From: Stigmatella erecta | GTDB lineage: Bacteria; Myxococcota; Myxococcia; Myxococcales; Myxococcaceae | Assembly (NCBI RefSeq): GCF_900111745.1 | Contig: NZ_FOIJ01000003.1 | Span: forward strand, 558,001-622,000 | Length of the DNA: 64,000 nt | Direction: 5' to 3' | Shown here: positions 24,909 through 32,575 of the stretch, piece after piece | Numbering within the stretch: the stretch's first letter is position 1 | Layout of the letters: every line of letters begins with the position of its first letter | Program-made: the position numbers and the translations under genes | The notes under the pieces: generated by a model | What the model was told of the DNA's origin: nothing | The model's input: only the letters and a program-made list of their open reading frames with translations | The model's database searches: none

Positions 24909-26675
24909 TTAGCGTGAACCTGGCTCCACGGGCTCGCAGCGCACGAAGACTTCCAGCCTCTCGCCCCCGCCGCCCAGGTAGATGGTGCCCCGGGTGGGCG
25001 TGGTGTCCGAGTACTGCCGGCCCACGGCGACCCGCACGTGGTCCGTCTGCGTGAGGATGCCGTTGGTGGGATCAAACCCCTTCCACCCCACCTCGGGCAG
25101 GTACACCTGCACCCACGCGTGCGAGGCCTCCGCCTGGATCGAGTTGGCGTGCTTGGGGCCGGTATAGATGTAGCCACACGTGTAGCGCGCGGGGACGCCC
25201 AGCAGCCGCGCCAGGCAGATGAAGACGTTGGCGAAGTCCTGGCACACGCCCGTGCGCGTCGAATACACGTCGAACGGGGTGGTGTTCAGCGTCGTGGAGC
25301 CCTGCAGGTAGCGGTACTCCTTGAAGATGCTGAAGTTGATGTCCAGCAGCGTGTCGAGCAGGTCGAAGTCATTGCGGCGCGCGAAGCTCATCGCGTACTC
25401 GAGCAGTTCCTCTAGCTGGGTGTCCGCCAGCTCGGGCGGCAGCAGGTAGGGCTGGAGCATGTTGGCCTGCCACGGCATCCACACCAGCGGCAGCGTGGAG
25501 CGCACGTGGAGCGGCCGGTAGCTCAGCGGATCCGTGTCCCGGAGCTCCACGCGGGAGCGCGCCTCGATGACGAGCTCCTGATAGGGCGTGTCCACCAGCA
25601 CCTTGCGGACCCGGTTGCCGAACACGTCCTCGTACTCGGCCTGCGTCACCCCCGAGGACATCGTCACCTCGTGCGCGAGCAGGGACTGCAGCCGGTCGTG
25701 CAGCGGGGTGAGCCGCAGCTTGTGGGCACTGCGCTCCACGGGCTGCGCGTACCGGTACACGGTGCGGTGGTGCACGTCCATCACCCGCACGGGGGCCACG
25801 GGCGGCCGGCGCAGGCGGCTGCGGGCCTCGAACTCGGCGGCCAGGGCGGGCTTGCCCCCGCCGGTGCCCAGGGACTTCGGCGGCAGCACCTCGGCGCGCA
25901 AGGCCCCCTGGCGCAGGATGACCAGGGAGCTGGGCGGCATCTGCTTCCACGTCGCCGGCACCTCGGTGCGCGACTCGATGGGGTGGGTGCTGATGATGAA
26001 GCCCTTGCGGCTCTTGGCCCCGCGCCGCGTCAGGTCCAGCTCCAGGTCCGCATCGCCCAGGATGAGCCGCTCATAGGGCGGGGACACCTGCCACAGCCAG
26101 CAGTTCGTGGCGCCCGTGCGGTCCGCGTAGATGCACAGGTCCTGCCCGTCCGACACGACGAGCGTCAGCGGCCCCAGGGTGTTGACCTCCTCCAGCCAGC
26201 CCCGCAGCCGGGGCGCGTCCACGTCCCCGAGGCTGCGCCAGCCCTGCTGGTGGATCCAATCCAGCAACCGGCAGAACAGCGCCTCCGAGTCCGTGGAGCC
26301 CACCGGCTCGAAGAGGGAGCCCTGAGGAATGTTCAGGCGCTGCTCGAGGCTGCCGCTGTGGGTCAGCAGCCAGTCGCGCCCCCAAGCGCTGCGGCAGAAG
26401 GGCTGGGTGTTGGCCTCGGTGAGGGGCCCCCACGCCGCCGTGCGCAGGTGCAGCAGGAAGATGGAGGACTCCAGCGGATCCCACGTCTTCATGAGCCCGC
26501 TGCGGTTGCTTCCCGGCTGGGGGGCGGCCTCCTTGACGAGGCTGGCCGCGAGCTCGCCCCCGGGGTAGTAGCCCACGCCCCAGCCGTCCGGCGGCTTGTG
26601 GCCGGGGGCCATGCAGTGCAGGTCCAGGCTGGGGGCGAGCTCTCCCTCGAAGGACAGCGCGAGCAGGTTGAGCAT
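24909..26675 (-). CDS. Fusion: class-II amidotransferase-like domain lacking its Cys + transglutaminase
   Basis: This 588-residue protein has two parts. Residues 1-250 match the Ntn-type class-II glutamine amidotransferase fold (PDGWGVGYYPGG, LLHLRTAAWG...NTQPF, LLTHSGSL, GSTDSEALF). The residue after Met1, normally the nucleophile Cys, is Leu, so glutaminase activity should be absent. Residues 297-588 form a bacterial transglutaminase with a complete triad: Cys478 in TRTGVCQDFANVF, His519 in ASHAWVQVYLP and Asp535 in GWKGFDPTNG. It lies in an operon with ATP-grasp and alpha-E genes, the set proposed in the literature to make or modify peptides by amide-bond formation. Cytoplasmic; substrate unknown. 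Confidence 0.85.
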   Translation of the reverse strand: MLNLLALSFEGELAPSLDLHCMAPGHKPPDGWGVGYYPGGELAASLVKEAAPQPGSNRSGLMKTWDPLESSIFLLHLRTAAWGPLTEANTQPFCRSAWGRDWLLTHSGSLEQRLNIPQGSLFEPVGSTDSEALFCRLLDWIHQQGWRSLGDVDAPRLRGWLEEVNTLGPLTLVVSDGQDLCIYADRTGATNCWLWQVSPPYERLILGDADLELDLTRRGAKSRKGFIISTHPIESRTEVPATWKQMPPSSLVILRQGALRAEVLPPKSLGTGGGKPALAAEFEARSRLRRPPVAPVRVMDVHHRTVYRYAQPVERSAHKLRLTPLHDRLQSLLAHEVTMSSGVTQAEYEDVFGNRVRKVLVDTPYQELVIEARSRVELRDTDPLSYRPLHVRSTLPLVWMPWQANMLQPYLLPPELADTQLEELLEYAMSFARRNDFDLLDTLLDINFSIFKEYRYLQGSTTLNTTPFDVYSTRTGVCQDFANVFICLARLLGVPARYTCGYIYTGPKHANSIQAEASHAWVQVYLPEVGWKGFDPTNGILTQTDHVRVAVGRQYSDTTPTRGTIYLGGGGERLEVFVRCEPVEPGSR

Positions 26676-26686
26676 GGCGCGCGACT

Positions 26687-27670
26687 CTACCCCTCCATCA
26701 CCTGGGTGCCCAGGGGAACGGCTTTCCCGAAGTACTCCCGCGCGATGAGCTGGCACAGGTCTGAGGTCCCCTCCACCATGCGCGTGAGCAGCCCGTGCAG
26801 CGTGGCCTCCGGCCCCGCCAGGGACTCGGGGCGCAGCTGCTCCAGCAGGGGCGCCAGCCGGGCCAGGCACTCCTGGCCCAGCCGGTCCTGGGATTCGGGC
26901 GAGGACAGCTGGTGCAGGTAGCGGTTCGCCGCCTCCAGACAGAAGCGCACCGAGCGGGGAAAGCGGCCCTCGAAGAGGAGGAAGGCCGCCACGGCATCCC
27001 CCGTCACCCGGCCGGAGTGGGTCTTCATGAAGGGCTCGAAGCCGGAGCCGGCGCGCAGCAGCGACAGCCAGAGCGCCGTCTGCACCACCAGGTGGCCGGA
27101 GTTCATCTGGGCGAAGACGTGGTGGTGCACGTCCAGGAGCCGCGCCGTCTGCCCGGCCCGCTCCAGCATCACCCCCAGCCGGATGAAGTCCAGGGGGGTG
27201 TCGTGCAGCATGGTGCTGTCGGACAGGCCCAGGCACAGCTGCACCATGCGGCGGATGTGCAGGTAGAAGGCGTAGCGGGAGTGGGTGTACTCGGCCTTGC
27301 CCATCTCCCCGCCGAGCCAGAGGTACAGCTCGTTGGTCACCTCCCAGCACTCGCGGCTCACCACCTCGCGGATGGAGCGGGCGTTGTCCCGGGCCGCGAA
27401 CAGGATGTTCACCAGGCTGGAGCCGTTGTCATCGTCCCAGGTGAGGAAGTTCTGCACCGCCTCGCCGTCGGCCTCGGCGGCGGCGCCATGCCGCAGGGCG
27501 AAGGCGGCCCTCTCCCCGAAGATGGCCAGGGCGGGCATCCAGCACTGCTCGGGGGGAAGCTCCGCGTCCAGGGCGAGCTGACCGGTCATCTGGAGCACGC
27601 GCGCGGTGCTCTCCGCCCGCTCCAGATAGCGCCCCAGCCAGAAACAGTGCTCGGCGATCCGGGCGATCAT
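26687..27670 (-). CDS. Alpha-E domain protein
   Basis: This 327-residue all-helical protein starts IARIAEHCFWLGRYLERAE, the diagnostic N-terminus of the alpha-E family. It continues with NARSIREVVSRECWEVTNELY and LDFIRLGVMLERAGQTARLLD. These proteins almost always accompany circularly permuted ATP-grasp enzymes and transglutaminases, and are thought to support a peptide-modifying reaction. The ATG overlaps the ATP-grasp stop (ATGA) and the stop lies 11 bases before the transglutaminase ATG. Biochemical role unproven. Confidence 0.9.
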   Translation of the reverse strand: MIARIAEHCFWLGRYLERAESTARVLQMTGQLALDAELPPEQCWMPALAIFGERAAFALRHGAAAEADGEAVQNFLTWDDDNGSSLVNILFAARDNARSIREVVSRECWEVTNELYLWLGGEMGKAEYTHSRYAFYLHIRRMVQLCLGLSDSTMLHDTPLDFIRLGVMLERAGQTARLLDVHHHVFAQMNSGHLVVQTALWLSLLRAGSGFEPFMKTHSGRVTGDAVAAFLLFEGRFPRSVRFCLEAANRYLHQLSSPESQDRLGQECLARLAPLLEQLRPESLAGPEATLHGLLTRMVEGTSDLCQLIAREYFGKAVPLGTQVMEG

Positions 27671-29139
27671 GCCGTCTCCTTCTGCACCCAGGTGTCCTTG
27701 GAGCCGCCGCCCTGGCTGGAGTTGACGACATACGAGCCCGCGCGCAGCGCCACCCGGCTCAACCCCCCCGGCAGCACCCACGAACCCTGGGGGCCGGTGA
27801 GGATGTAAGGCCGCAGGTCCACCCGGCGGGACACCACCTGGCGCGAGGCCGCGTCCCATGTCGGGCAGGTGGACAGCTCGATGCGGGGCTGGGCGATGTA
27901 GCGCCGGGGCTCGGCGAGGATGCGCTGGCGGAAGTCCTCGCGCTCCTCCCGGGTCGACTGGGGGCCCATCAGCATGCCGTACCCGCCGGCCTCATCCACC
28001 GTCTTCACCACCAGCTGCTCCAGGTGCTCCAGCACATAGCGGCGATCCTCCTCGCGGGCGCACACGTACGTGGGCACCTGCGCCAGCATGGGCTCCTCGC
28101 CCAGGTAGTAGCGGATGAAGTCCGGCACGAAGGCGTACACGGCCTTGTCGTCCGCCACCCCGTTGCCCGGGGCGTTGGCCAGCGTCACATGGCCCGCCGC
28201 CCAGGCCTTCATCAGCCCCCGGACGCCCAGCAGGCTGTCCGGCCGGAAGGTGTCCGGATCCAGGAAGGCATCGTCGATGCGCCGGTAGATGACGTGCACC
28301 CGGCGCGGCCCCCGGGTGGTGCGCGCGAAGACCCGCTCGTTCTCCACGTAGAGGTCCGCGGCGTGCACCAGCTCCACGCCCATGGTGCGCGCCAGAAAGC
28401 TGTGCTCGAAATAGGCGGAGTTGTACGGCCCCGGGGTGAGCACCACCACGGTGGCTCGGTCCGGATCCTCCGGCGAGGTGGCCCGGAGCGTCTCGGCCAG
28501 CTTCGCAGGGTAGTGGTCCACGCGGCGCACCTTCGCCAGCTCCAGCACCTCGGGCAGGACGCGCTTGGAGAGGATGCGGCTCTCCATGACGTACGAGACG
28601 CCCGAGGGGGTGCGCAGGTTGTCCTCCAGCACCTGGAAGGTGCCCTGGCCGTCGCGGATCAGATCGATGCCCGCGATGTGGATGCGCACGCCCCCCGGCG
28701 GCCGCACGCCCCGCAGCATCGGCAGGTAGAGCGAGGTGCCCAGAATGATCTCTTTCAGCTCGGGCTGCTCGGCCAGCAGCCGCTGCTCTCCATAGATGTC
28801 ATCCAGGAACGCGCTGAGGGCGCGCACGCGCTGCTCCAGCCCGCGCTCCAGCTGCGCCCAGTCCCGGGCGGACACCAGGCGGGGAATGAGACAGAAGGGG
28901 AAGATGCGCTCCGTGCCGCGCCGGTCCGAGTACACCGAGAAGGTGACGCCCTGGTTCAACAGGGCCCGCTCCGCCAGCGCCTGGATGCGGGTGAACTCCT
29001 CCGGAGACCGGGAGCCCAGCACCTCCAGCAAGCGCACGAAGTCGGGCCGGGGCTCGCCTTGAGGACCGATCAGCTCGTCGAAAGCCCCAGGAATGATGCC
29101 GTAACCTTTGAACAGTCCCGGATCCTGCGAAAGCCTCAT
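27667..29139 (-). CDS. Circularly permuted ATP-grasp protein
   Basis: This 490-residue protein belongs to the circularly permuted type-2 ATP-grasp family. Hallmarks are the N-terminal GVTFSVYSDRRGTERIFPF, the RIHIAGIDLIRDGQGTFQVLEDNLRTPSGVSYV block, the NAPGNGVADDKAVYAF loop and a late KTVDEAGGYGMLMGP segment, typical of ATP and metal binding. ATP-grasp enzymes activate a carboxylate as acyl phosphate and join it to an amine. It is the first gene of a four-gene operon with alpha-E, transglutaminase and DUF4406-like genes. The peptide or small-molecule substrate is unknown. Confidence 0.92.
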   Translation of the reverse strand: MRLSQDPGLFKGYGIIPGAFDELIGPQGEPRPDFVRLLEVLGSRSPEEFTRIQALAERALLNQGVTFSVYSDRRGTERIFPFCLIPRLVSARDWAQLERGLEQRVRALSAFLDDIYGEQRLLAEQPELKEIILGTSLYLPMLRGVRPPGGVRIHIAGIDLIRDGQGTFQVLEDNLRTPSGVSYVMESRILSKRVLPEVLELAKVRRVDHYPAKLAETLRATSPEDPDRATVVVLTPGPYNSAYFEHSFLARTMGVELVHAADLYVENERVFARTTRGPRRVHVIYRRIDDAFLDPDTFRPDSLLGVRGLMKAWAAGHVTLANAPGNGVADDKAVYAFVPDFIRYYLGEEPMLAQVPTYVCAREEDRRYVLEHLEQLVVKTVDEAGGYGMLMGPQSTREEREDFRQRILAEPRRYIAQPRIELSTCPTWDAASRQVVSRRVDLRPYILTGPQGSWVLPGGLSRVALRAGSYVVNSSQGGGSKDTWVQKETA

Positions 29140-29247: not shown

Positions 29248-31203
29248 CTAAGGACGCGGTGGGGGCTGTGTCGGGCGCGCGAGGAAGGCAAGTGCCGTGT
29301 GGCGGACATCCCCGTTGGGATCATTCTGGCCCGCCCACGACAGCAAGGGCCCGGCGCTGGGCACATTCAGGAGGTTCGAGCCCAGCAGGCGCACCACCTC
29401 GATGCGCACCGCGCCCACGGTGTCGGTGCGCAAGGTGCGCTCCAGGGCGGGCATCAGGGGCGGCAGGGGCCGGAAGCTGCTGGCGAAGATGGCTGCGCGG
29501 CGCACCTCGGGCACGGGGTCCCCCAGCATGCTCGCGGCCAGCATCTGATCGGCGGCGGGGCCCGGAATGAGACGCAGCGCCTCCACGGCAGCCTCGCGCA
29601 CCACGGCGGAGGCGTCCCTCAGCGCCTCCTGGATGGTGGGCAGCGCGAGCGGGTGCGCGCTGTTGGCCAGGGCCCGGAGCTGGAGGGCCCGCGCCTCGGG
29701 GGTGGGCGCGGTGGCCACCGCGTCCTTCAGCTCGCGCAGCAGCGCGTCCGCCGAGGGGTCCTTCTGGGTCTCCAGGTTCCGCGCGGCATTGCCCAGCGCG
29801 AGCGTGGCCGTGCTCCGCAAGTCCTCCTCACCGCTCTGGGCGAGCTGGCGCAGCGCCGTGAGCCCCTCCTGCGTGGGTTTCTCCACCACGCCCAGCCCCG
29901 CCGCGGCATCCACCCGGACCGCGGTGGGAAGCTGCGCATCCAGCACCACTTGCCCCAGGGCCTGCACGGCCTCCGGCGTGCTGGCCGCGGAGAGCGAGCC
30001 GATGAGGCTGCTGTACGTGTTGCGGTCCTTCTCGCCCCGCAGGAGCGCGGGCACCTGGGCGGCCACGCCGGGCTCCAGCGTGAAGAGGGCCCGCATCCGG
30101 TTCATGAGCTGAGAGGTTGCCTGCCCCCGCTCGTTCTCGCCCGGGGGCAGCTTGCGCAGGTCCCCGACGAGGTCCGCCAACTGCGCGCCGCCCACGAGGC
30201 GCCGCAGCTCCGCCTGGGGGTCCTCGGGCGCAAACACCTGGGTGCCCAGCGAGGCGGTGGCCAGTTGCTGCCGCCGCGCCTCCAGCGAGCCAATGAGCAG
30301 CGGCACACTGCGCACCGCCGTCCGGGTGAGCTGCACCTGCCCCTCGCCCCGCACCGTGGGCAGCCCTTCGCCGGAGCTGACCGACACCTGCTCCCGGCTC
30401 GAGACCGACTCGGGCCAGCCCTCCTCGCCCAGGAGGAACGAGGCCGAGGCGTCCACGGTGATGCGCACACTGGGGTCCAGGTTCTGCAGCCCGCTGGGCG
30501 ACGTCATCCGGAGGTAGCGCTCCTTGGTCTTTTCGTACTTCCGCGCCCCCGGCACCTGCCGGTACTGGGCCGCGTACAGCCCGGTGACATCCAGCTCCTG
30601 CGCCGGCCACGCCTCCTTGGGCACGTTGGGCGTGACGAACTGGGTGGAGGCCACCAGCGTGCGCAGGAAGTTCTGCGTCACCGGATCCAGCCCCCGCTCG
30701 GAGTGCACCAGCAGCGCCGCCCCCTGGCGGTTGAACGTCACATAGAAGGGCGCTTGCAGGTGGGCCTGCATCAACGGACGCGACTTCGCGTCGAGCGCAT
30801 CCTGACCCTCCGCCTCGAAGGTGAGCCGGTTCGAGTGAATCTGGAACTGCACGTCCAGACGGTCCCCCTGGCCGCCCACCACCGCCATGGACAGCTCTCC
30901 GTCCAGCGCGAGGTGCAGCGAGGGCGAGGTGCTCGCGCCTTGCTGGCCGAAGGTGACCTTCTGCACGGCCGAGAGCGTGTAGACAAACTGGGTGCCCGCG
31001 GACCAGGTCCGGGCACGCCCCTCGCTGGGGACGGCCCCAGCCCCCTGCCGCGCCGGAGCGGCCGGGGGCGCAGTCACCGCGGCCGGAGCGGCCTGCTGCC
31101 CCGCGGGCGCGGGGGCGGACTCCTTCGCCAGAGTCCAGTAGACACCGGAGCCCAGGAGCAGGATGGCGGAGAGGGAGGGCACGAGCCAGCGGCGGTGGAA
31201 CAC
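29248..31203 (-). CDS. Exported HEAT-repeat protein resembling the vitellogenin/LLTP N-terminal region
   Basis: This 651-residue protein has an N-terminal membrane anchor or signal (WLVPSLSAILLLGSGVYW) and a Pro/Ala-rich linker. A beta-rich region begins WSAGTQFVYTLSAVQKVTF and LDGELSMAVVGG. A long helical HEAT array follows (STPEAVQALGQVVLD, AAGLGVVEKPTQEGLTALRQLAQ, PEVRRAAIFASSFRPLP). A beta-domain opening with a G-x-(Y/F)-x-Y strand, followed by a helical superhelix, is the order in large lipid-transfer proteins, so lipid or lipoprotein handling in the periplasm is a reasonable guess. The GTG at 31203 fits the signal segment; ATG 31269 is an in-frame alternative. Confidence 0.65.
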   Translation of the reverse strand: MFHRRWLVPSLSAILLLGSGVYWTLAKESAPAPAGQQAAPAAVTAPPAAPARQGAGAVPSEGRARTWSAGTQFVYTLSAVQKVTFGQQGASTSPSLHLALDGELSMAVVGGQGDRLDVQFQIHSNRLTFEAEGQDALDAKSRPLMQAHLQAPFYVTFNRQGAALLVHSERGLDPVTQNFLRTLVASTQFVTPNVPKEAWPAQELDVTGLYAAQYRQVPGARKYEKTKERYLRMTSPSGLQNLDPSVRITVDASASFLLGEEGWPESVSSREQVSVSSGEGLPTVRGEGQVQLTRTAVRSVPLLIGSLEARRQQLATASLGTQVFAPEDPQAELRRLVGGAQLADLVGDLRKLPPGENERGQATSQLMNRMRALFTLEPGVAAQVPALLRGEKDRNTYSSLIGSLSAASTPEAVQALGQVVLDAQLPTAVRVDAAAGLGVVEKPTQEGLTALRQLAQSGEEDLRSTATLALGNAARNLETQKDPSADALLRELKDAVATAPTPEARALQLRALANSAHPLALPTIQEALRDASAVVREAAVEALRLIPGPAADQMLAASMLGDPVPEVRRAAIFASSFRPLPPLMPALERTLRTDTVGAVRIEVVRLLGSNLLNVPSAGPLLSWAGQNDPNGDVRHTALAFLARPTQPPPRP

Positions 31204-31276
31204 GAAAGAACCTCGGAACTCCGAAAGGAAGACCACGGTGGCGGAAGCCCTCCCGCCACCGTGAAGCACCTACCGC

Positions 31277-32575
31277 CTACTCCATCTGGCAAGGCATATC
31301 GGGCAGATAGTAGAGGCTGTCCACGCTGTGGTCCGTGGGGGCCCGCAGGCAGCTTCCCCCACCCCCACCCCAGCCGCCGCCACCACCACCGCCGCCACCG
31401 CCGCCCGTGTCTCCCCCACCGCCCGTGCCATCCAGCGTGCCCGTGCCGCCCACCGGAGCACCGTACGAGCAGGTGAAGTTGAGCGGCACCGCGCTGGTGG
31501 CGTTGTAGAGCGTCCAGCTCTTCGTGATGCCGCTCCACTTGGCGATGGTGAGCGAGAACTTCTTCTTGATGAACAGGAGCTTGATCTTGATGAACGCCTT
31601 CAAGCTGCCGGACAGGGTGTTGACGGTGAAGTCCGACTTGAGGTTCCAGTCCATGGTGCTGCAGCCGGTGGACACCAGCTGCGCGGTGACCGGCAAGCTC
31701 GCGCCGATGAGCGTCAGGTTGCCCTCCACGCCCAGGCTCGCCACGGAAATGCCCACCGCCGCGCTCGCGGCCACGTAGACGTTGCCCTTGGGGGTGGCGA
31801 TGAGCTTCGCCACGGTGGGGGCCATGGAGCCGGTGACCTTGATGCCCGCGTTGCCGTTGAGCGACGCCGTCACCGTCACCGGGATGAACATGATGGGGAA
31901 GCTCTTGCTCGCCGACTTGAACGTGCGGTTGAAGAGCTGGTCCTCATACAACGTGCCCGAGAGCAGATCCTTCGAGTAGATCTGCGAGCCCATCACGTAC
32001 ACTTTGACATTGGCGCCCACGAAGGCGTTCTGCTGGGCGGTGCCCGAGGCCCGGGCGCGCAAGAGCTCCGTCTGCCCGGAGCCGAACACCTTGCCCCAGA
32101 CCTTGCCCTCGGCCACCGCGTCGAGCTTCGCGCCCGCGCTGGCCGTGGCCGGCAGGCCGTTGAGGGACGCGTCGATGACGTAGCCCGCGCCGAACGTGCT
32201 GTTGCCGAAGCCGTCATCCTTGTGGAACGCCTTGCTGAACGGCTGGTCGCCGGGGCTGCTCGCGTTGGGGTCCACCTGGACGCCCGGAGGCTCCGTGGCG
32301 AGGTCCGCATCCGGCGTCTGTCCCTCGTCGTTGAAGACGTGCGGATCCGGATCTCCGGACTCCATGCCCGTGGTGCAGACGCCGATACAGTCTTGATACA
32401 GCGCCTGATTCATCTCGTTGTTGATCTGCACCACGGTGTACGGATCCCCGTACACGCTGGTGCCGTCATCCATGACGATTTCTCGCTCATAGACGATGCG
32501 CGCCTGCGCCGGGCCGGACAGGCCCAGCGACGCCATCGTTCCGATCAATGCAACCTTGGGGGATAGACGGGACAT
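31277..32575 (-). CDS. Secreted protein with Gly-rich linker, unknown function
   Basis: This 432-residue protein has a signal peptide (KVALIGTMASLGLSGPAQA, cleavage before RIVYE). The long beta-rich body has repeated strands about Lys/Val/Ala content (TVTASLNGNAGIKVTGSMAP, KGNVYVAASAAVGISVASLGVEGN). Near the C-terminus lies a glycine tract (about residues 383-408, almost all Gly with single Trp/Asp/Thr), then a short tail. Few cysteines. It is upstream of, and on the same strand as, the HEAT protein with about 73 bases between, so joint transcription is possible. Family not recognised. Confidence 0.7.
   Translation of the reverse strand: MSRLSPKVALIGTMASLGLSGPAQARIVYEREIVMDDGTSVYGDPYTVVQINNEMNQALYQDCIGVCTTGMESGDPDPHVFNDEGQTPDADLATEPPGVQVDPNASSPGDQPFSKAFHKDDGFGNSTFGAGYVIDASLNGLPATASAGAKLDAVAEGKVWGKVFGSGQTELLRARASGTAQQNAFVGANVKVYVMGSQIYSKDLLSGTLYEDQLFNRTFKSASKSFPIMFIPVTVTASLNGNAGIKVTGSMAPTVAKLIATPKGNVYVAASAAVGISVASLGVEGNLTLIGASLPVTAQLVSTGCSTMDWNLKSDFTVNTLSGSLKAFIKIKLLFIKKKFSLTIAKWSGITKSWTLYNATSAVPLNFTCSYGAPVGGTGTLDGTGGGGDTGGGGGGGGGGGWGGGGGSCLRAPTDHSVDSLYYLPDMPCQME

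Follow-up and report, generated by a model that had tools for sequence, protein, structure and literature searches.

A candidate split relative of the large lipid-transfer proteins, encoded by two adjacent genes in Stigmatella erecta

The large lipid-transfer proteins (LLTPs) of animals are presented in PMC1783640 as one superfamily derived from a common ancestral lipid-transfer molecule. For this family, studied in animals as vitellogenin, apolipoprotein B (ApoB), and MTP, which load and carry fat, a bacterial form in two pieces seems to exist. PMC9219001 describes MTP as a single chain that pairs with PDI, and the domain boundaries quoted in PMC3337244 place a barrel at residues 22-297, helices at 298-603, and a C-terminal lipid-binding and transfer sheet at 604-894. 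In literature on LLTPs or vitellogenin together with bacteria or evolution, no bacterial LLTP appeared in the titles or abstract openings among the matches listed; subscription journals and preprints lay outside the scope of this search, which is no proof of novelty.

The window (the whole stretch of DNA analysed here, 64,000 nt) comes from the soil bacterium S. erecta (GCF_900111745.1, NZ_FOIJ01000003.1, positions 558,001 to 622,000, forward strand). It contains gene A, which starts with GTG at 31203 and stops at 29248 on the minus strand, and gene B, which lies directly upstream of A on the same strand. The features of the two genes, in window positions, are as follows.

29248..31203, minus strand: gene A, 651 aa, resembling the N-terminal half of an LLTP (beta domain plus helical superhelix), from the ORF, profiles, and AlphaFold2 model
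31129..31194, minus strand: hydrophobic segment of A, approximately residues 4-25, with RR before it, from a crude hydrophobicity scan and a low-confidence model helix at 8-19
30223..31020, minus strand: predicted beta domain of A, residues 62-327, with helix 174-187 between strands, from the model and its match to the ApoB/LLTP N-terminal beta-barrel
29278..30219, minus strand: predicted helical superhelix of A, residues 329-642, 19 helices, with Vitellogenin_N at 391-551, from Pfam, a PDB profile search, and the model
31233..31264, minus strand: hairpin of 14 pairs between the B stop and the A start, terminator- or attenuator-like, from folding
31277..32575, minus strand: gene B, 432 aa, beta-rich putative partner linked to A family-wide, from the ORF, profiles, and linkage
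32501..32575, minus strand: probable Sec signal peptide of B, residues 1-25, ending PAQA (hydrophobicity 1.37, threshold 1.6; A-x-A present)
31484..32239, minus strand: predicted all-beta core of B, residues 113-364, 14 strands, several of them amphipathic, conserved, from the model aligned to the MTP lipid-binding sheets (611-877)

Protein A, which has no cysteine in the window, begins with a short charged N terminus followed by the hydrophobic segment, a proline/alanine-rich linker, the beta domain, and the helical domain. A plus-strand ORF (29299-31476) overlaps gene A and is presumed to reflect the high GC content of that gene, as its antisense shadow. Immediately downstream of A, at positions 24909-29139 and likewise on the minus strand, is a CP_ATPgrasp / Alpha-E / class-II amidotransferase-transglutaminase cluster. 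Two A and two B genes, forming two A-B pairs, were found in the S. erecta genome.

Pfam detected two families in A, HEAT_2 (4.1e-20) and Vitellogenin_N (4.3e-12), the latter at residues 391-551 within the helical part. The Vitellogenin_N score of 45.9 bits, against a cut-off of 24, answers the profile search that the initial annotation had proposed as a check of its vitellogenin-like reading of this gene. Fifty-seven related rows were aligned along A, most of them covering nearly all of the family profile; at E <= 0.01, 55/57 matched Vitellogenin_N and 57/57 also matched HEAT_2. Ten HEAT-repeat proteins from outside the A family, hand-picked from 16 such ORFs and including two that also carry other domains (M56, T2SSE), were used as controls. 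None of the ten exceeded the Vitellogenin_N cut-off, and one is listed at 17.7 bits. The 57-row alignment and the contrast of 55/57 members with 0/10 controls indicate that A is a real gene and that its relationship to Vitellogenin_N is more than chance; A-type proteins are already recognised by Pfam under this family. Within the Myxococcota sample, Vitellogenin_N was matched in 59 of 193 genomes at E <= 0.001 (53 over the cut-off), and there was no match in 14 control genomes. Some places over the cut-off (G092:C133 and G082:C599) match only the last helical part of the family and may be plain HEAT proteins, which shows that the cut-off lacks full specificity. A single-protein pattern scan of contigs confirmed one relative.

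Family profile A1 matched lipovitellin (4.8e-15) and MTP (~1e-7) among PDB sequences, the MTP alignment (149-548 vs 104-498) spanning both the beta domain and the helices. Designed HEAT proteins outscored the LLTPs in this search, up to 3e-59. When residues beyond 500 were omitted (profile A5), one designed HEAT protein ranked first (1e-6) and MTP second (0.0011), and the MTP alignment was co-linear from profile position 87, inside the beta domain, to 426, in the helices. The beta domain alone (profile A3) retrieved no LLTP from PDB sequences up to E 10. Searched against Pfam, the beta-domain rows gave Vitellogenin_N weakly in 4/57 (best 0.0011) and an unrelated thioredoxin-like family in 5/57 (best 0.0064). 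The higher score of HEAT_2 than of Vitellogenin_N, the lead of designed HEAT proteins, and the lack of an LLTP sequence match in PDB for the beta part are consistent with A being an ordinary HEAT scaffold joined to an unrelated beta domain, with convergence of repeat helices and a generic barrel producing the LLTP likeness. The co-linear alignment of A5 and MTP, which begins inside the beta domain, and the failure of ten other HEAT-repeat proteins to reach the Vitellogenin_N cut-off, argue against such convergence, as do the structural comparisons that follow.

The AlphaFold2 model of A, built on the 57-row alignment, has a mean pLDDT of 86.9 and a pTM of 0.56, with residues 1-62 mostly below 50. 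The model contains strands from 71 to 299, with helix 174-187 among them, followed by 19 helices that span 329-642; the sequence WSAGTQFVYTLS (residues 67-78) lies where the first strand (71-86) begins. In a Foldseek search of PDB, ranks 1-9 were all LLTP chains (MTP 8.5e-18, lipovitellin 3.9e-15, ApoB 2.5e-11, bee vitellogenin 2.8e-11, rank 9 at 1e-8), and the first HEAT-only structure scored 1.2e-6. VIA listed three designed HEAT proteins at Z 20.8 to 20.0, MTP at 19.8 (model 64-636 on chain 25-615), and lipovitellin at 19.7, and among the 50 matches listed the beta domain was reached by LLTP rows only. The ApoB barrel alone (9bd8_A) covers model residues 62-327 with Z 18.9 (rmsd 5.0, 247 residues, 8% identity). 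Whole-chain superposition of A on LLTPs was poor (rmsd 18-21 A, TM ~0.3), indicating that the curvature or domain orientation of A differs or is mispredicted. An assignment of A as a HEAT protein only was set aside: the repeats are present, but the beta domain, with its fold match to the ApoB barrel, is left unexplained. Since nine LLTP chains precede any HEAT-only structure in Foldseek and the isolated ApoB barrel matches A, even though designed HEAT proteins lead the VIA list as well as the sequence list, we regard the convergence explanation as very improbable.

These comparisons suggest that A very probably has the LLTP N-terminal fold, and the match of its predicted beta domain to a barrel of the LLTP N-terminal type is well supported. 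The initial annotation had described a beta-rich opening and a later helical HEAT part in 29248-31203, and both are confirmed by the strands, the subsequent helices, and the HEAT_2 match. Its vitellogenin-like domain order also held in profile and model, with a beta domain at the N terminus that matches the barrel of LLTPs and then a helical superhelix, and the comparison with lipovitellin and MTP that it called for returned LLTP chains as the nine best Foldseek matches. Its expectation of a lipid-cavity beta-barrel fits the gene in part: the barrel corresponds to the LLTP N-terminal barrel and not to the cavity. The sheets that line the cavity are absent from A and, judging by the models, seem to be encoded by B.

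Pfam and NCBIfam returned no family for B of the window. Among PDB sequences, B profile A2 retrieved six weak, unrelated matches and no LLTP, and B profile A4 retrieved none up to E 10. Vit_open_b-sht (PF09172) was found weakly in 4 of 43 B cores (best 0.0039); an unrelated Pfam family did better in one B-core row (0.00025). Across 193 genomes, PF09172 exceeded its cut-off in none. Sub-cut-off places in genome G094 fall inside B, and those in five other genomes (G106, G088, G136, G063, and G014) were rejected as candidates, the stretches fetched there containing neither A nor B. In three loci (L086:2531-4993, L099:3935-6643, and L104:7929-10754), B is a protein of 821-942 aa in which a long additional region precedes the conserved beta core.

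The model of B is of low confidence (mean pLDDT 62.7, about 66-90 in blocks of the core, pTM 0.49), with a core at 113-364 made of 14 strands. Foldseek nevertheless placed LLTP chains at ranks 1-5 (MTP 1.3e-5 and 2.0e-5, lipovitellin 1.7e-4, MTP 1.6e-3, bee vitellogenin 3.1e-3); the next rank scored 0.023 with probability 0.13, and all non-LLTP structures among the 50 listed had probabilities of at most 0.25. In VIA, B 113-362 aligned to MTP 613-877 of 8eoj (Z 7.1, 216 residues, 5.1 A), and B also aligned to MTP 611-877 of 6i7s (Z 6.4, 232 residues, 5.4 A), Z values that lie within the stated background. Three unrelated beta proteins scored above MTP (BtuB 8.9, LptD 8.4, OpcA 7.7), so that on VIA by itself LLTPs would not stand out as the match for B. 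The strand residues of B alternate in hydrophobicity overall, to a degree reached in 0/5000 shuffles for the row mean and 5/5000 for the window alone, and at least 4 of the 14 strands do not alternate (113-124, 209-228, 307-333, and 350-364). Porin strands alternate in hydrophobicity too.

Such data could also describe an A with the LLTP fold that serves as periplasmic assembly or delivery partner for a B that is an outer-membrane beta-barrel or another beta protein. The N terminus of B resembles a signal peptide and its strands are amphipathic, BtuB, LptD, and OpcA precede MTP in VIA, and porins do occur in the Foldseek list, after the LLTPs. Whether B forms a closed transmembrane barrel is judged here from a low-confidence model, for which LLTPs come first in Foldseek and BtuB, LptD, and OpcA come first in VIA. 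Against an outer-membrane B, Foldseek separates LLTPs (1.3e-5) from porins (0.09 and weaker), the strands of B align to MTP over 216-232 residues at 5.1-5.4 A, and the MTP region they match is exactly what A lacks. We therefore consider an outer-membrane or otherwise unrelated B unlikely. The fold match of B to LLTPs is moderately supported, and B is quite likely to be the other half of an LLTP.

The two matches are complementary. A covers residues 25-615 of MTP and B residues 611-877, with the joint at the MTP domain border (603/604), and the two models were built from separate alignments. The B-MTP coverage fit is possibly a coincidence, the B model being poor; the linkage of A and B, which is conserved, and their co-divergence make coincidence less likely.

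Linkage was examined in 40 wide loci chosen for holding A or a Vitellogenin_N match. By profile, 34/40 have both A and B, five have only A (L090, L093, L095, L097, and L103), and L094 is the sole B-only locus, in which a single-protein search does detect A. One A subfamily adjoins dnaA (L086:8564-10468, L085:9215-11182, L090, L095, and L097; DnaA identified by Pfam in L086 and L090), and there is no B nearby in the dnaA-side loci L090, L095, and L097. A separate B profile gave 135 B places in 74 of 195 genomes, which were set against 105 Vitellogenin_N places. B lies within 5 kb of 77 of these 105 places, with none within 5 kb for the other 28, and conversely 74/135 B places have a Vitellogenin_N place within 5 kb. 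Fewer than one linked pair is expected by chance (a rough estimate). In 70 of the 77 linked pairs the two places share a strand, B lying upstream in 46 of these pairs and downstream in the other 24; the remaining 7 pairs are divided between the strands. Among the 61 B places that have no Vitellogenin_N neighbor, 15 have A nearby: 10 with an A place within 5 kb and 5 with a family-A gene in fetched loci (L118, L120-L123). No A was found in the fetched stretches of L117 and L119, in both of which B is near a contig end, and the other 44/61 are outside this count.

A and B also diverge together. Over 37 pairs, A and B distances were correlated with a Mantel r of 0.962 (0/5000 permutations), and with 0.947 for distant pairs, a correlation due in part to shared species history. 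No fused A-B ORF was found: in the searched loci, none of the 49 ORFs of type A is also among the 48 of type B. No third conserved gene was common to all loci by crude ORF clustering with antisense ORFs included, and tblastn gave no B match in plasmids. Many genomes have more than one A or B copy; whole-genome searches were confined to Myxococcota, with bacteria outside hardly covered. Variation around the pair includes two tandem B matches in front of a single A in a distant family of Myxococcota (L102:79-3838) and a thermolysin-type M4 metallopeptidase with PPC domains adjoining an A-B pair (L099:1608-3863). A 942-aa protein with SBBP repeats and VWD (6.2e-17) is encoded about 5 kb from the second A-B pair of this genome (L065:3020-5845, G000:C23). 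VWD, which animal vitellogenins also contain, was considered as a third vitellogenin module and rejected as a general part: 52 VWD places in 33/189 genomes were compared with the typed A/B subset on shared contigs, and 5/52 lie within 6 kb of A (G000, G003, G004, G005, and G020).

The fold match of both halves (that of B on a weak model), their complementary coverage, their linkage, and their co-divergence are results of computation. On this basis, A and B are likely the two halves of a bacterial LLTP, split between adjacent genes, that would move lipid in the periplasm. We infer a physical A-B complex, its membrane topology, lipid binding, and a direction and cargo; for lipid transfer by the pair itself, our opinion leans toward yes. 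The periplasmic lipid carrier named in the initial annotation is likewise something that we infer.

Export signals were scored by hydrophobicity (threshold 1.6) and A-x-A on ORFs that mostly run from stop to stop. A hydrophobic N-terminal segment is present in 55/57 A rows, with A-x-A in 20, and in 31/37 B rows, with A-x-A in 25. The A segment, often followed by tryptophans, is probably a signal anchor or signal peptide, and we lean toward a membrane anchor. A would then be an LLTP N-terminal module that this segment holds, probably in the inner membrane, while most of the protein lies in the periplasm, and B would supply the C-terminal amphipathic sheets after export via its signal peptide. 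B could dock within the curved arch that the helices of A make, the two enclosing a hydrophobic cavity, which would take lipid from the inner membrane and carry this lipid through the periplasm or export it from the cell. Since B would be soluble and a chain of its own, it may depart from A with its load. A strong hairpin also lies between B and A in 5/5 folded relatives that have B upstream, some differing in sequence, a comparison of the window with five B-first relatives that carries no shuffled controls. A terminator scan did not rise above shuffles (2 found, shuffle mean 1.5). The hairpin might keep the level of A below that of B, which would fit a role of B as the mobile carrier.

Homology to LLTPs need not mean lipid movement, and A-B could instead be secreted to serve in adhesion, in a matrix, or in a clotting-like process, roles that some LLTPs of animals have; the crustacean clotting protein is listed as an LLTP in PMC1783640. 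Consistent with such a role, many genomes have several copies, some of them near SBBP-repeat or M4-protease genes. However, Pfam recognised no adhesive domain in A or B of the window, where VWD was absent at E up to 10, and the overall alternation of hydrophobicity in the B strands also speaks against it. An adhesive, matrix, or clotting-like role is improbable.

In the A tree, built without animal LLTP sequences, there are deep paralogues, and other families of the order and phylum appear on long branches; several deep joins are flagged unsafe. This pattern suggests that the A module is old in the phylum or has spread within it. Myxobacteria may carry an old and diversified two-subunit LLTP family, in which an anchored A and a detachable lipid-cavity B together correspond to MTP and with which animal LLTPs share ancestry, a proposal that we make tentatively and rate at somewhat below an even chance. 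If it is true, the LLTPs of yolk and blood lipoproteins would be related to a periplasmic bacterial lipid-transfer machine, either by transfer from bacteria followed by gene fusion or by transfer in the opposite direction followed by splitting. For the ApoB/MTP family, a bacterial form in two genes would serve as an outgroup. It would also reveal where the chain tolerates a break and provide a small system with separable parts in which to study lipid loading of the cavity. According to PMC4048283, developing myxobacteria convert membrane lipid into triacylglyceride bodies, and A-B would add a candidate lipid mover in these bacteria.

Because A and B are in separate ORFs, the pair is termed a split relative and is not filed as MTP or vitellogenin. 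Compared with bacterial HEAT-repeat proteins, A shares HEAT_2 repeats in its C-terminal half, whereas the ten such proteins tested fall short of the Vitellogenin_N cut-off. A resembles the N-terminal region of ApoB in the barrel matched by 9bd8_A, but at 8% identity, and A stops after the helical domain. Like vitellogenin and lipovitellin, A exceeds the Vitellogenin_N cut-off and has a beta domain followed by helices; unlike vitellogenin, it has no VWD or open-sheet domain recognised by Pfam, and the sheet part is seemingly a separate gene, with Vit_open_b-sht weakly matched in relatives. The MTP large subunit is like A-B in having the barrel, helical superhelix, and C-terminal sheets in order (A on 25-615, B on 611-877). 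MTP differs in being one chain, whereas in the bacterial form two genes divide the chain at the helical/sheet border and the A subunit has a probable membrane anchor.
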